The notes beneath the pieces were generated by a model that was not told the origin of the DNA, did not search any database, and saw only the letters and a list, made by a program, of their open reading frames with translations. This document shows, in pieces, positions 57,536 to 64,000 of a stretch of DNA of 64,000 nt. Location of the stretch: positions 1 to 64,000 of the forward strand of contig JAUQWO010000050.1 in assembly GCA_030835135.1 (NCBI GenBank), written 5' to 3'. This stretch comes from Bacteroidota bacterium (lineage in GTDB: Bacteria > Bacteroidota > Ignavibacteria > UBA10030 > UBA6906). Within the stretch, counting starts at the first letter, position 1. Each line of letters starts with the position of its first letter. Made by a program: the position numbers and the translations under genes.

Positions 57536-57600
57536 AACACGACCACACATGATCACGGGCACGCACCCCCATGCTGCCCACGATCCAGGGAGGGCTGGAG

Positions 57601-60600
57601 ATGAAGAGGTGGAAGGGAGACGATCGGCGTTGCTTCATGCCTGCCCGCCTGCTCGCCCGCGTTCCTTTCGTCTTCCTCCTTGCTTCCACCGCGCTCTGCC
57701 CCGCAACGCACGGTCAAACCCTTCACCCCGAATTTCGCCACCTCTCCGTCGCCGACGGACTCTCCCACTCGCAAGTCGCATCGATCACCCAGGACCGATA
57801 CGGATTCATCTGGATCGGCACACGCTCCGGACTCAACCGGTATGACGGATACCGCTGCACCGTGTTCAAACACCGGACGGATGATCCCTCATCCATCTCC
57901 GGCGACTTCATCCTCTCGCTCTGCGCGGCGAGCGACGGACGGCTCTGGATCGGCACACAGAACCGCGGACTGAATGTGTTCGATCCTGCCACCGGACATT
58001 TCACCCATGCGCCAAAGGGGTCGCCCGGAGCCGCACTGACGATCCCCGTCCTCATGGAAGATCATACCGGCACTCTCTGGGTCGGCACCACCGATGGTCT
58101 GTTCACCGTCGACCTCTCCGGGAGTACGTTCTCGCTGCTGCCGGTCTCCGACTCGTCAACCTCTCCAGCGTCGCGACTGTCCGTCGTCCGGGCCCTGCTT
58201 GAAACCCCCGACGGCACGTTGTGGGTCGGCACCGAGAACGGCGTGAAGAAGTTGCCACCCACAAAGCGCGCCGCACGGAAGTTCATCGCTCTTCCCCATG
58301 CCGCCGGCGATCCCGCCAGCCTGAGTGTCGGCATCGTCCACGCTCTGACGGCCGATCCCTCCGGTGGCGTGTGGGCCGGGAGCCGGACGGGCGGTGTTCG
58401 TCGCATCGACCCGCGAGGGCACATCGACAGGTTCCTTGCAGATGCACAGGAGCGCTCGCTGTTCACCGACCGGTCCGGGACCGTCTGGCTCGGCACCCTT
58501 GATGAAGGTGTATTCACGATCTCCGGAAGACCGGACCTTCCGGTCATCGAGAACTTTCGGCACGATCCGAACAGCGGGGAGGGACCGGGAGCGAACGAGA
58601 TCAGTTGCATCACCGAAGACCGGTCCGGCCGCATCTGGTTCGGCACCGCCGGTGGTGGAGTGTCGTATGTCGACCCGCTTCGTCGAAAATTCCAGCACCG
58701 CCACCATATCCCCTATGCCAGGGGAACACTCTCGGCTGATCTTGTCAGGGCCATGGCGGTCGACCCGGCCGGTGACCTCTGGGTGGGTAGTCAGGGTGGC
58801 GGCATCGACCGATTCCCGCGGGGCAACGACCGGTGTGTGCATTACACAACAGGCGGTGTCGAGGAGAAGGACAACCTGCTCACAGCCCTGGTCTGCCGCG
58901 GGAACGGCGAGGTGTGGGCCGCCTACACCTTTGGAGGGATGGTCCGGATGTTCCCCGGACGGAAGGAGCCGCAACATTTCCTTCACGACACGCGCGACAC
59001 GACAGGACTGACAGGCATCAACGTCGTGCGTGCGATGTTCGAGGATTCTCGCGGAACGCTGTGGATCGCAACGCACGGGTTTGGCGTTTTACGGTTTGAT
59101 GACCGGACCGGTACATTCTCGCGGTACGGGATGTCGGACCGGGGGCGGTTGCGGAGCAATCATGTCTGGTGCATCACCGAGGACCGCGACGGGATGATCT
59201 GGTTCGGACTCCGGACCTATGGACTTGCCCGGCTCGATCCGGCGACGGACGCCGTTGCGCATTTTCCGTCCGGCGCGGCCGACTCCGTTCTCTCCGATGA
59301 CCCGGCACTCGCGCTGCTCGCCGCATCGGACGGATGTCTGTGGGCAGCCACAGCAGGTGGCGGGCTGCAGCGTCTCGACCCTCGCCGGGGAATGGTGACA
59401 CGCTACAACGAATCGCGGGGCTTCCCGGAGAATATGGTGTATGGCATTCTCGAAGACGCCCACCGCGATCTCTGGCTGAGCACAGGCAAAGGCATCGTCC
59501 GGTTCACGCCATCCACACACAAGGCCCGCCTCTTCGGGATGGCTGATGGGATCCAGAGCACCGAGTTCACGGCGGGCACATGTTGCGTGACACCGGATGG
59601 CTGGATGGGGTTCGGTGGGATCAATGGATTCAACTGGTTCCATCCCGACAGCATCGCATTCAACACGGTTCCTCCGCCCGTCGCCCTCACCGGCTTCCGC
59701 GTGTTCGATACGGAACGCCACGTCGCCCCCATACCCCCTCCATCGGCACCTCTGATCCTCCGGCGCGACGAGAATTTTTTCTCTGTCGAATTCGCCGCCC
59801 TGGACTACACGTCACCCGGTGAGAACCAGTATTCCTACAAGCTGGAGGGGTTCGACCGCGACTGGGTCCATGCAGGACGCTCGCATCGCGCGACCTACAC
59901 CAACGTCGGACCGGGCGAATACATCTTCCGGGTCCAGGCTGCGAACAACGACGGCGTATGGAACATGGAAGGGGCGTCGCTCGCCATCGTCATCCTTCCC
60001 GCAGTCTGGGAGACCTGGTGGTTCCGTGCGCTCGTTGTGATCGCCGCCGGAGTCATCGGCGTCGTGCTCTATCGCTATCGCATCAACCGGCTCCTGGCTG
60101 TGCACCGGACCCGCGAGCGGATCGCGCGGGACCTCCACGACGATGTCAGCGCGATCCTCAGCGGCATCGTGTATTTCAGCAGCGCCGTGGAGACGGACGG
60201 TGGCAACGCCCTGTCCGATCGCTCCTCCCACTTCCTGACCCAGATCCGCCGCAGCTCCACCGAAGTCCTGGAACTTCTTCACGACATCATCTGGTCGATC
60301 CACCCGGACGGCGACTCCCTGGAGAGCATCCTCACCAAGTGCCGTCGCTTCGCGGCCGATCTGTGTGAAAGCCGGGGGATCGCGCACGACATCTTGGTCA
60401 CGGACAGTGTGCCTGCGCGGAACGTGGACCCGGAGAAGCGCCGGGACCTCTGGCTGATGTACAAGGAGATGATCACCAATGCCGTCCGCCACTCCGCCTG
60501 CACGACGCTGCAGGTCAGGATAACCGTCGGTCCCGAAGGAGAGCTCGCGTTGACCGTGGCGGACAACGGAACCGGTTTCGACAGCACGCAGCCCGGCCGT

Positions 60601-60711
60601 GAGAGCGGATTGCGGAACATCCGCGCCCGGGCAACTGCGTTGAAAGGCGATCTGCACGTGGTGAGTGTCCCCGGCCAGGGGACTCGATGGGAGTTCCGGA
60701 CCGTCCTCTGA
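57601..60711 (+). CDS. Propeller/Y_Y_Y sensor histidine kinase
   Basis: The protein is 1036 aa. A signal peptide (about 1-39) is followed by a two-component-regulator propeller region of about 14 repeats (to about 690; units like DRYGFIWIGTRSGLNRYD). A Y_Y_Y domain follows (YSYKLEGFDRDWVHAG). One TM lies at 806-828. Then comes a HisKA_3-type domain with His846 in RDLHDDVSAIL, and a HATPase domain (EMITNAVRH at 956, VADNGTGF). It is a hybrid-type sensor without a receiver. ATG 57601 is preferred over 57571 because AGGGAGGG lies 6 bp before it. The NarL-type regulator downstream is its likely partner. Confidence 0.92.
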   Translation: MKRWKGDDRRCFMPARLLARVPFVFLLASTALCPATHGQTLHPEFRHLSVADGLSHSQVASITQDRYGFIWIGTRSGLNRYDGYRCTVFKHRTDDPSSISGDFILSLCAASDGRLWIGTQNRGLNVFDPATGHFTHAPKGSPGAALTIPVLMEDHTGTLWVGTTDGLFTVDLSGSTFSLLPVSDSSTSPASRLSVVRALLETPDGTLWVGTENGVKKLPPTKRAARKFIALPHAAGDPASLSVGIVHALTADPSGGVWAGSRTGGVRRIDPRGHIDRFLADAQERSLFTDRSGTVWLGTLDEGVFTISGRPDLPVIENFRHDPNSGEGPGANEISCITEDRSGRIWFGTAGGGVSYVDPLRRKFQHRHHIPYARGTLSADLVRAMAVDPAGDLWVGSQGGGIDRFPRGNDRCVHYTTGGVEEKDNLLTALVCRGNGEVWAAYTFGGMVRMFPGRKEPQHFLHDTRDTTGLTGINVVRAMFEDSRGTLWIATHGFGVLRFDDRTGTFSRYGMSDRGRLRSNHVWCITEDRDGMIWFGLRTYGLARLDPATDAVAHFPSGAADSVLSDDPALALLAASDGCLWAATAGGGLQRLDPRRGMVTRYNESRGFPENMVYGILEDAHRDLWLSTGKGIVRFTPSTHKARLFGMADGIQSTEFTAGTCCVTPDGWMGFGGINGFNWFHPDSIAFNTVPPPVALTGFRVFDTERHVAPIPPPSAPLILRRDENFFSVEFAALDYTSPGENQYSYKLEGFDRDWVHAGRSHRATYTNVGPGEYIFRVQAANNDGVWNMEGASLAIVILPAVWETWWFRALVVIAAGVIGVVLYRYRINRLLAVHRTRERIARDLHDDVSAILSGIVYFSSAVETDGGNALSDRSSHFLTQIRRSSTEVLELLHDIIWSIHPDGDSLESILTKCRRFAADLCESRGIAHDILVTDSVPARNVDPEKRRDLWLMYKEMITNAVRHSACTTLQVRITVGPEGELALTVADNGTGFDSTQPGRESGLRNIRARATALKGDLHVVSVPGQGTRWEFRTVL

Positions 60712-60721
60712 TCACCACTGA

Positions 60722-60766
60722 ACTACCGGTTTATGTAGTGTGATGATCACACCTCATCCGTATCAT
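60722..60766 (+). promoter_or_regulatory. Candidate regulator-gene promoter with ACTACC-N7-GTAGTG operator
   Basis: ACTACC-N7-GTAGTG (60722-60740) is followed after exactly 20 bp by TATCAT (60761-60766). A perfect 15-bp palindrome, GTGTGAT-g-ATCACAC (60738-60752), overlaps its end. The same operator and spacing occur at 61684. This would let the regulator gene be transcribed separately from the kinase gene. Confidence 0.5.
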
Positions 60767-60808
60767 GCGCACTCCAACGAAGCACCTTTCAGGGAAGACA
60801 ATGCAGAC

Positions 60809-61465
60809 ATGGATCCGATCAACGTTGCGATCGTCGAAGACAATCCGTACGTGCGTGAGGCGTGGGGCGCCATGGTGGAGGCGGACGAGGGACTGCGCCT
60901 GAGCGGCTGCCACAGGAGCTGCGAAGAGATCCTGGCATCCGACACGCTCGAGCGGACCGATGTGCTGCTGCTTGACATCGGTCTTCCCGGGCGCTCCGGC
61001 ATCGAGGGTCTTGCCGACATGCGGAAACGCGCCCCCGGCCTGCTGGTGATCATGTGCACGGTGTTTGAGGACGACGCCAACATCTTCAACGCGCTGTGCG
61101 CGGGAGCGGTGGGATATATCCTCAAAAAGACCCCTCCGGAAGAGATGCTCCGCGCGATCTATGACGTGGCCGCCGGCGGATCGCCTATGAGCCCATCCAT
61201 TGCGCGCAAAGTGATCCGGTCCCTGCACACCGGCCCGACACACCCGCACGGCCCGGGGTCCGTGGTCCTCTCGGAACGCGAACAGGAGATCCTGACCCGG
61301 CTCGTCCAGGGTCGGTCGTATCGGGACATCGCCAACGAGCTCTTCATCTCGGTGGATGGTGTGCGCTACCATCTGCGCCACATCTACGAAAAGCTGCAGG
61401 TCTCATCGCGGGCTGAAGCAGTGGCAAAAAGTCTCAAGGACCGTCTCGTGCCGCCTCCCCGCTGA
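60809..61465 (+). CDS. NarL/FixJ-family response regulator
   Basis: The protein is 218 aa. The receiver domain has IVEDNPYVREA and phospho-acceptor Asp56 in LLLDIGLPG, with KKTPPEE near its end. A LuxR-type helix-turn-helix (about 155-208, LSEREQEILTRLVQGRSYRDIANELFISVDGVRYHLRHIYEKL) follows. It should bind inverted-repeat operators. ATG 60809 gives the family start; the frame is open back to 60740. It follows the propeller kinase by 97 bp that contain a candidate own promoter. Confidence 0.92.
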   Translation: MDPINVAIVEDNPYVREAWGAMVEADEGLRLSGCHRSCEEILASDTLERTDVLLLDIGLPGRSGIEGLADMRKRAPGLLVIMCTVFEDDANIFNALCAGAVGYILKKTPPEEMLRAIYDVAAGGSPMSPSIARKVIRSLHTGPTHPHGPGSVVLSEREQEILTRLVQGRSYRDIANELFISVDGVRYHLRHIYEKLQVSSRAEAVAKSLKDRLVPPPR

Positions 61466-61537
61466 CGCACTCCGCCTTATCCTTTGTGTCCTTTCCATTC
61501 GCCATCCCCGATCCTCGTTGCACCACCGTCCATTCTC

Positions 61538-61598
61538 CTTCTTACTTCTTACTTCTTTCTTCTTCCCTCTTTCTTCTTACTTCTTACTTCTTTCTTCT
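61538..61598. repeat. 26-bp direct repeat in polypyrimidine tract
   Basis: Two identical 26-bp copies (61538-61563 and 61573-61598) are separated by 9 bp and consist of C, T and two A residues. Confidence 0.85.
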
Positions 61599-61683
61599 CT
61601 CTTCATTTTCCTTTCTTCCTTTTTCCTTCTTTCTTCTCCTTCTTCCCTCCTCATTTTGCCCCCTTCCCCCATGCTTCGATAAA

Positions 61684-61728
61684 ACTACCCGATCCGGTAG
61701 TGCGTCCTCTCACCCCTCTTTGTATACT
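61684..61728 (+). promoter_or_regulatory. Candidate promoter with ACTACC-N7-GTAGTG operator, secreted-protein gene
   Basis: ACTACC-N7-GTAGTG (61684-61702) is followed after exactly 20 bp by TATACT (61723-61728). The operator is centred near -42 of the predicted start at about 61735, a usual place for a class II activator. The gene begins at 61775 with GAGG upstream. Confidence 0.55.
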
Positions 61729-61774: not shown

Positions 61775-62053
61775 ATGATCCGTGAGTTCACCATGGCGGT
61801 GATCACCGCCTTCGCATCCATTGCCGCCCATGGACAGACACTCTGGCAATGGCAGCACCCACGTCCACTGGGACACTCCCTCTACGCGGTCGGTACCATT
61901 GACGACCACAGGATGGTGGCAACCGGCGGACTGGCGAGCAGTGTGTACTTCTACCGGCTCGAGGTCCGGCCTTCGGACGGCGGCTCCGGGCGCCACTCCG
62001 GAGATGGAACGGGCACCCATACAGAGACCGAACGCATGCTCCTCACACGATAA
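61775..62053 (+). pseudogene. Shrunken T9SS-type secreted protein (92 aa)
   Basis: A signal peptide (about 1-20, ending AAHG) is followed by QTLWQWQHPRPLGHSLYAVG, like the start of Ycf48/BNR-repeat T9SS proteins (W-x-WQNP-x-P-x-G-x-x-LY-x-V). After VATGG it jumps directly to LASSVYFYRLEV...TETERMLLTR, the end of a T9SS sorting domain. The large middle expected in such proteins is missing. I read it as an internal-deletion remnant, although a real small secreted protein is possible. ATG 61775 has GAGG upstream, and the frame itself is intact. Confidence 0.55.
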
Positions 62054-62088: not shown

Positions 62089-64000
62089 ATGAAGAAGATC
62101 ATGAGGACTGTTATCCTTGTCGCCATCGCGGGCATCATGGCATCAACCGCAACAGCCGGCATCCGCTGCACCGCCACAAAGTCCGGGAATTGGAGCGATC
62201 CGACGGTCTGGGACACGGGGGTCGTCCCCGGCCTGGGGGATGATGCATGGATCGACCTCGGTTCGAACGTCACGGTGGATATATTCGGTGCCGTGTGCCT
62301 GGATGTGTTCATATACAACGGGAAGATCACGATAGCGTCCGCAGGTGCTCTCCTGTCCGTCACCGATTTCTTCACGATCGGCAACGATCCGGCGAACACC
62401 GGCACACTGGTGATGTCTGCCGGCAATCTGTTCGTGGGTGGCAATTTCAACATCTCTTCCGACGGGACGGCGGACATCACCGGTGGGACCCTGCACCTGA
62501 CCGGGTCCGGCCAGAACCTGGACCCCGGAACGTACTTCAATATCCGCATGTCCGGCGGCACCAAGACCGTTTCCGGAGACATCACGGTGGACGGTACCAT
62601 GGAGATCCTCAGTGGGGCGACGTTCGATGGCGGGGCGTTCACCCACCGGTTCAAGGGCGACTGGACCAATGACGGCACGTACACCCCGAAGATGAGCACG
62701 GTCATCTTCAACGGAAGCACGCCACAGGCGATCTCCGGCACGTCATCGTTCCGCCATCTTTCATTCACCGGCCCGGGGATCAAGACACTGAGCGGCTCGC
62801 TGCTCGTGAACGGGGATGTCACCGTCGGGGCGGCGGCAACGGTACGGGCCGGGTCGTCATCCATGGAAGTGGGCGGGAACTGGTCGTGTGTCGGCACGTT
62901 CAACGGACAGACCGGGGAGGTAGTGTTCGATGGCCCGTCGATCGCGATCTCCGGCGGCGCGGCATTCCATCACGTGACCATCCGTGGAGCGACTGTCGTT
63001 ACGTGCTCGAACAATATCACGATGGATGGCGATTTCTCGACCAGTAACCAGGCGACCTTCGATGCCAACGCACAGACACTGACGGTGGGCGGGGACTGGT
63101 CGAACTCCGGCGTTTTCAAAGGGGTGGGGGCGACGATCGTCATGAATGGCACCACCCAACAGATGGTGACAGGCTCGCGGAGAGTGACCAACCTGACGAT
63201 CGACAACAGCGCCGGGATCCAACTGGCAGTCGGTGCCATTGACACGGTCATCGGAACCCTGACCTTCACCCAGGGAAGCATCTGGCTGCTGAACGGCAAC
63301 GTTCACCTGGGAACGAACTCGGGAGTCGTCGGCGCAGGTGCAGGTCAATGCATCATCACCAACTCGGTCGGTTACGTGCACCGGAGGGTTCAGGGTGGCG
63401 TGAGTGCTGTACCATTCACATTCCCCGTGAGTCCCGATGCAACGACCTACAACCCGGTGACCATCGCCCTGCGGTCCGTCGCCGGCGAGCCCGACGAGAT
63501 CTTCGCCGTCCGCGCATCCGTTCTTAAATCCGGCTCACCCGGGTTCGCTTCGATCGATACGACATTCTGGGTGTGGCGCTTCTGGGACATCATGGAAGAG
63601 ACTCCCGGAGGCAACCATGCCGATCTCACGTTCCAATGGGACCGTGAGTCGCAGGGCTCGCTCTCGTGGCCCGTCAAGAATGCTGTCGTGAACGCTGGGT
63701 TCTACCTGTACGATCCCGTCTCGCATGTGTTCACCCAGTTCACCGGCGCAACCGGGCCCGCACCGTTCGGCGGGCCGCTCACTGCCGCGTCCTCGCAATC
63801 CAAAGCGACGTCGTTCGGCATTATCACCGTCGGTCCGGATGTCACCCTGCCGGTCCAACTCTCGGCATTCACCGCGACACGCGTATCGCGTTCATCGGTC
63901 ACGCTGACGTGGACAACGCTGAGCGAGAGCCAGAACTACGGATTCTACGTGCAAAGGCGGGACAACGCCTCCGCCGCGTGGACGGAGATCCCGGGGTCGT
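62089..64000 (+). CDS. Large T9SS-type secreted beta-repeat protein, 3' end outside window
   Basis: At least 637 aa are visible, open to the right edge. The signal peptide (to about TATAG) is followed by SGNWSDPTVWDTGVVPG, a common start of Bacteroidota cell-surface adhesin-like proteins. Repeated beta units then have the pattern VGG-x-W...F-x-G...Q-x-ISG-x-x-x-F-x-x-L (about 110-430). Near the edge LPVQLSAFTATRVSRSSVTLTW is the fibronectin-like segment that often precedes a T9SS sorting domain, which would lie beyond 64000. ATG 62089 has AAGGAAGGG upstream, and the gap to the previous gene is 35 bp. It is probably under the same promoter at 61684. Confidence 0.85.
   Translation, partial: MKKIMRTVILVAIAGIMASTATAGIRCTATKSGNWSDPTVWDTGVVPGLGDDAWIDLGSNVTVDIFGAVCLDVFIYNGKITIASAGALLSVTDFFTIGNDPANTGTLVMSAGNLFVGGNFNISSDGTADITGGTLHLTGSGQNLDPGTYFNIRMSGGTKTVSGDITVDGTMEILSGATFDGGAFTHRFKGDWTNDGTYTPKMSTVIFNGSTPQAISGTSSFRHLSFTGPGIKTLSGSLLVNGDVTVGAAATVRAGSSSMEVGGNWSCVGTFNGQTGEVVFDGPSIAISGGAAFHHVTIRGATVVTCSNNITMDGDFSTSNQATFDANAQTLTVGGDWSNSGVFKGVGATIVMNGTTQQMVTGSRRVTNLTIDNSAGIQLAVGAIDTVIGTLTFTQGSIWLLNGNVHLGTNSGVVGAGAGQCIITNSVGYVHRRVQGGVSAVPFTFPVSPDATTYNPVTIALRSVAGEPDEIFAVRASVLKSGSPGFASIDTTFWVWRFWDIMEETPGGNHADLTFQWDRESQGSLSWPVKNAVVNAGFYLYDPVSHVFTQFTGATGPAPFGGPLTAASSQSKATSFGIITVGPDVTLPVQLSAFTATRVSRSSVTLTWTTLSESQNYGFYVQRRDNASAAWTEIPGS

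Follow-up and report, generated by a model that had tools for sequence, protein, structure and literature searches.

A putative two-component module with paired operators at the promoters of a NarL-type regulator gene and adjacent type IX secretion cargo genes

The locus described here, at the right-hand end of the window (the whole stretch of DNA analysed, 64,000 nucleotides), very probably encodes a self-contained two-component module, in which a NarL-type response regulator would activate both its own promoter and that of adjacent genes for cargo of the type IX secretion system (T9SS). By sequence comparison, the locus is one member of a large family of modules, each equipped with a half-site of its own. 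With rather less assurance, we favour the view that insulated sensor-regulator-cargo modules of this sort are widespread in Bacteroidota and neighbouring phyla, that their operators are private, that helix 9 and half-site have coevolved, and that the operator would be predictable from the regulator sequence. The features on which the argument rests are as follows (all on the forward strand).

57571 to 60711, +: sensor histidine kinase with Reg_prop two-component propeller, Y_Y_Y, HisKA_3 and HATPase_c domains (Pfam, all above cut-off)
60722 to 60739, +: predicted operator 1, ACTACCGGTTTATGTAGT, an inverted repeat of 18 bp with imperfect symmetry, past the kinase gene and ahead of the regulator gene (exact pattern match)
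60739 to 60766, +: predicted promoter 1 core, TG at 60739-60740, 20 nt, TATCAT at 60761-60766 (sequence; spacing conserved in homologues)
60809 to 61465, +: response regulator of the NarL/FixJ type (218 aa), with Y187 in its recognition helix SVDGVRYHLRH (Pfam and structure match)
61684 to 61701, +: predicted operator 2, ACTACCCGATCCGGTAGT, an inverted repeat of 18 bp with near-perfect symmetry, ahead of the cargo genes (exact pattern match)
61701 to 61728, +: predicted promoter 2 core, TG at 61701-61702, 20 nt, TATACT at 61723-61728 (sequence; spacing as in promoter 1 and homologues)
61775 to 62053, +: 92-aa open reading frame, an internally deleted-looking cargo (C-terminal match to the T9SS neighbour)
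62089 to 64000, +, continuing past the window end to contig position 64488: secreted protein of 799 aa with a T9SS type A sorting domain (TIGR04183, PF18962)

The locus and its paired operators

The regulator consists of a receiver domain (Response_reg, PF00072, 70.6 bits) followed by a LuxR-type helix-turn-helix (GerE, PF00196, 58.8 bits); its closest match among solved structures in the PDB is NarL (1a04), and its predicted phospho-acceptor, D56 in LLLDIGLPG, is invariant in 18 homologues. On the cargo side, the sorting domain of the 799-aa protein scores 31.9 bits with TIGR04183 (cut-off 23) and 30.1 bits with PF18962 (cut-off 27). The 92-aa frame directly behind operator 2 opens with what looks like a signal peptide. 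Over residues 51-91 it matches two other proteins encoded in the genome at their C-terminal ends, the neighbouring T9SS protein being one of the two. No Pfam or NCBIfam domain was found in it, and it looks like a T9SS cargo gene whose middle has been deleted.

The earlier note had pointed to two sites with identical halves, spacer length and distance to a -10-like box, and direct reading of the sequence bears this out. Site 1 (60722-60740) reads ACTACC-GGTTTAT-GTAGTG and site 2 (61684-61702) reads ACTACC-CGATCCG-GTAGTG, each followed after 20 nt by its box, TATCAT at 60761-60766 and TATACT at 61723-61728, respectively. Their starts lie 962 bp apart, operator 1 falling within the 97 bp that separate the regulator gene from the kinase gene and operator 2 beginning 218 bp past the regulator stop. 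Throughout the genome (4,897,289 bases in 88 contigs), exact copies of ACTACC-N7-GTAGT occur at 60722 and 61684 only, with at least one mismatch at every other place; since there are just these two, the pair is not the product of a common word. The search with the full ACTACC-N7-GTAGTG pattern and box, which the same note had proposed, likewise returned two matches, both at the regulator and cargo promoters, and the composite ACTAC-N8-GTAGTG-N20-TANNNT gave two perfect matches genome-wide, followed by three with two mismatches. Two candidates for a third site (C42:25643 and C34:36552) were discarded, as each carries two mismatches to the composite in an unconvincing promoter context. Plasmids yielded no match to the DNA.

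A mismatch-tolerant scan, confined to the window, found 26 loose matches where 21 were expected, so weak matches carry no meaning, whereas the perfect two do. The commonness of such loose matches is what speaks for a chance pair, or for a repeat without relation to the regulator. We find this hardly credible, as both exact genome matches fall at the locus and the same arrangement, spelled in other letters, recurs elsewhere far beyond chance, in contradiction to this explanation (see the comparative counts below).

From its letters, the operator is best described by ACTACC-N6-GGTAGT, an inverted repeat of 18 bp, after which comes TG-N20-TAnnnT. Eight of nine positions pair in site 2 and five of the outer six in site 1, whose right half is degenerate on its inner side. 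The 6-bp half GTAGTG of the earlier description is therefore retained in part: GTAGT is symmetric, but the terminal G lies outside the repeat and is assigned to the promoter, because most homologous promoters have a TG 20 nt ahead of the -10 box, TG-N20-TA being conserved, and this G is its second base. In both sites 21 nt separate the repeat from the box, and the repeat centre lies 30.5 bp ahead of the first T of the box, that is, at about -42.5 if that T is -12. Judged from sequence alone, both predicted operators thus lie where a class II activator would be expected (near -41.5, overlapping -35/-33). The boxes TATCAT and TATACT differ from the commonest form among the homologous promoters, TAnnTT. 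In Flavobacterium, TAnnTTTG is found at -12 to -5 (PMC9723704).

Two further features of the DNA around the promoters were seen. The spacer of promoter 1 holds a second inverted repeat, GTGTGAT-G-ATCACAC (60738-60752), which promoter 2 lacks, and directly upstream of operator 2 runs a long pyrimidine-rich tract (61530-61665) with TTCTTACTTC-type repeats, comprising eight copies of a 44-nt family.

Recurrence of the arrangement in homologous loci

The operator geometry was sought, irrespective of its letters, in 113 NarL-type regulator loci from 60 related genomes and the window's own genome, by requiring a palindrome with at least five of six outer pairs and scoring the distance to the next TANNNT. 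This distance showed a single sharp peak at 22 nt, with 30 counts upstream and 31 downstream of the regulator gene, against 0-9 at other distances. Sites at 21 or 22 nt were present upstream in 36 of 112 loci (dinucleotide-shuffle mean 2.3, maximum 7) and downstream in 35 of 113 (mean 5.9, maximum 10), while control distance pairs gave 3-14 loci; under this strict rule about one third of the homologous loci carry a site on a given side. Where both sites exist (n = 17), the upstream and downstream copies share 10.9 of the 12 outer positions, as compared with 6.2 when the downstream sites are redistributed among the 17 loci; none of 5000 such shuffles attained the observed agreement. Between loci, the half-sites vary (ATGACA, ATCGCA, ATAGAA, ATACCG, ACTGAA, ACTCCC and others), so that the operator is, by this comparison, private to its locus, as it is at 60722 and 61684. 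A search of 150 relatives with the literal ACTACC pattern gave scattered, chance-like matches; such a search misses the family because the operator letters are locus-specific.

Alignment of 68 sites yielded the consensus A-A-Y-n-n-c...g-n-n-R-T-(T)-G-N20-TAnnTT; these promoters had been picked for a 21/22 spacing, and the open distance histogram peaks only there. TG-N20-TA is common to both spacing classes, the palindrome lying 21 nt from the -10 box in the subclade of our regulator (helix SVDG-RYHIR) and 22 nt from it in the others. Relatives within this subclade, all at 21 nt, are Balneola with ACCACAT (upstream and downstream), Fodinibius with ACTACAT, and another Balneolaceae genome with ACCGCAT; the half-site form of the subclade, Balneola and Fodinibius included, is ACYnCAT.

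Three verrucomicrobial regulators (L219, L232 and L240; helix SYETVHTYIRR) have common GTCMCCAGNACTGGTGAC-type sites downstream, 22 nt before TANGGT, and by their example the operator-promoter arrangement may reach past Bacteroidota. At another locus (L028, about 685-845 on the contig strand), the palindrome AATCACC-N6-GGTGATT stands three times, about 70 bp apart, past a regulator gene on the opposite strand, like a multiplied operator.

The main rival to activation is repression by the same regulator from the same operator, in which the protein bound at -51 to -34 would block RNA polymerase until a signal releases it, with negative autoregulation as a consequence. The operator does overlap the -33 region, where repressors can also act. 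However, a repressor would tolerate varied positions, whereas the repeat centre keeps to -42.5/-43.5 and to one helical phase across the 68 aligned promoters, as contact between an activator and the polymerase requires. Moreover, regulators of the NarL/FixJ type bound near -42.5 are mostly activators. We therefore consider repression unlikely and favour class II activation, on the strength of operator position and fixed phase.

The genes around the homologous regulators recur as well. At site-bearing loci, the upstream gene encodes HisKA_3 in 46 of 47 cases, Y_Y_Y in 42 of 47 and Reg_prop in at least 32 of 47, the last being a lower bound because the final 1.4 kb of each gene was read. Downstream, 22 of 28 genes carry a T9SS type A sorting domain within the last 130 residues. 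Genes for such cargo number about 50-150 per genome in this group, by estimate a few per cent of the total gene number, so this proportion represents a strong enrichment. The order kinase, regulator, operator, T9SS cargo was seen repeatedly among the homologous loci.

The recognition helix and the half-site

Half-site letters follow the recognition helix, which provides the base contacts in RcsB-DNA structures (PMC5829831). Among 45 non-redundant regulators, from which poorly symmetric or oddly placed palindromes had been removed by hand as spurious, Y187 was, of 170 columns spanning both domains, the one that covaried most with the half-site: its summed adjusted mutual information was 1.05, that of the runner-up 0.71. 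It aligns to V189 in the recognition helix of NarL, a residue number that assumes a PDB chain offset of one. Over all loci, Phe, Tyr or His at 187 is accompanied by C in the second position of the half-site (16 of 16, other residues 0 of 52), and where the column has Asn, the third position is G (10 of 10). The aromatic rule held beyond the discovery set, in named loci that were gathered separately and selected by symmetry alone (at least 7 of 9 pairs), with five of five against none of 11; one of these five is a His, joined to the aromatic class when the second set was scored. Our regulator conforms, having Tyr at 187 and an operator that starts with AC.

Relatedness among the regulators is partly controlled for. 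In a tree from which the helix columns were left out, each trait changes seven times, and all four independent contrasts on supported branches agree, which are too few for significance alone (sign test p = 0.125); the ranking of columns across the whole protein served as a second control. The residue-base covariation is hence strong by count and modest by independent events. Taken as it stands, it suggests that the half-site of each module is largely set by the helix-9 residues of its regulator, notably position 187.

Within the window's own genome, which encodes several NarL-type paralogues, prediction of operators from the helix gave a mixed outcome: clean for one paralogue (L084), half for a second (L083), and none for a third (L082). 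L084 (C46:275228-275851) has a clean operator, ATACCGCGAATGCGGTAT, downstream, 22 nt before TACATT, and a weaker one, ATACCGTGAACGCGGGAA, upstream. For L083 (C66:48095-48724) the helix predicts ATAGAAC, and downstream stands only the right half, GTTCTAT, 22 nt from TACATT, which may represent a decayed operator. Around the L082 gene no clean operator was seen. Another regulator of this type (L192, C16:82542-83177; 46% identity) follows about 21 kb beyond ours on the same contig and is without a clean operator.

These paralogues, and the room for cross-talk that the sequence leaves, give some ground to the idea that a different regulator, such as a paralogue or a global factor encoded elsewhere, binds the sites while the local one acts elsewhere. 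A global factor would, though, impose one motif everywhere, whereas the half-sites vary by locus and track the linked recognition helix, and we regard this explanation as very improbable. Assignment of the operators to the local regulator is instead supported by the recurring gene order, the match of operators within loci and the tracking of the helix by the half-site.

Proposed mechanism and relation to known systems

We propose that the propeller-type kinase would sense a signal and phosphorylate the adjoining NarL-type regulator, a dimer of which would bind ACTACC-N6-GGTAGT near -42.5 of two sigma-A-type promoters and, by touching RNA polymerase, bring about class II activation. From promoter 2 this would drive the adjacent genes for T9SS-exported proteins, and from promoter 1 the regulator's own gene, a positive feedback that would raise the regulator but leave out the kinase. 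DNA binding, the dimer, phosphotransfer and activation over repression are what we infer; the regulon probably consists of these two promoters alone. The earlier note had the kinase/regulator pair autoregulating and driving the surface proteins. Self-control of the regulator and control of the cargo find comparative support, but the kinase drops out, because promoter 1 falls between the kinase and regulator genes and the predicted autoregulation covers the latter only.

Like NarL, VraR, RcsB and ChrA of the NarL/FixJ family, the regulator combines a receiver with GerE and has an inverted repeat as its predicted site; the covariation seen here falls in the helix that contacts bases. It differs in its 18-bp repeat with half-site A-Y-N-N-C, in the fixed spacing to a Bacteroidota-type promoter, and in what is probably a very small, local target set where theirs is a dispersed regulon. 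With the propeller/Y_Y_Y sensors, including the hybrid systems (HTCS) of Bacteroides, the module shares Reg_prop, Y_Y_Y, a histidine kinase core and local targets. An HTCS, however, joins sensor, kinase, receiver and AraC-type output in a single chain and usually controls genes for glycan use, whereas here the kinase ends at 60711 without receiver or helix-turn-helix and the NarL-type output resides in a separate GerE regulator. PorX/PorY-SigP likewise ties two-component control to type IX secretion, but its target is the secretion machinery, in contrast to the single neighbouring cargo genes that would be targeted here. Finally, the promoters resemble Bacteroidota sigma-A promoters (-7 element TAnnTTTG) in the TAnnTT box of most homologues, with the difference that the upstream element (TG) merges with the 3' edge of the operator.

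Every component is of a known kind. In the open-access papers searched we could not find a description of kinase, regulator, operator and cargo as a recurring unit with operators of its own, together with a residue-to-base rule, nor anything on propeller kinases combined with LuxR-type regulators and T9SS, or on covariation of operator and helix in NarL-type regulators. To our knowledge, little has been described of how single T9SS cargo genes are switched. If our reading is true, the fixed operator-promoter grammar, together with the residue-base rule, would allow cargo genes to be assigned to their sensors from sequence alone, and the family would be a natural series in which the origin of new regulator specificities that do not cross-talk could be tested.
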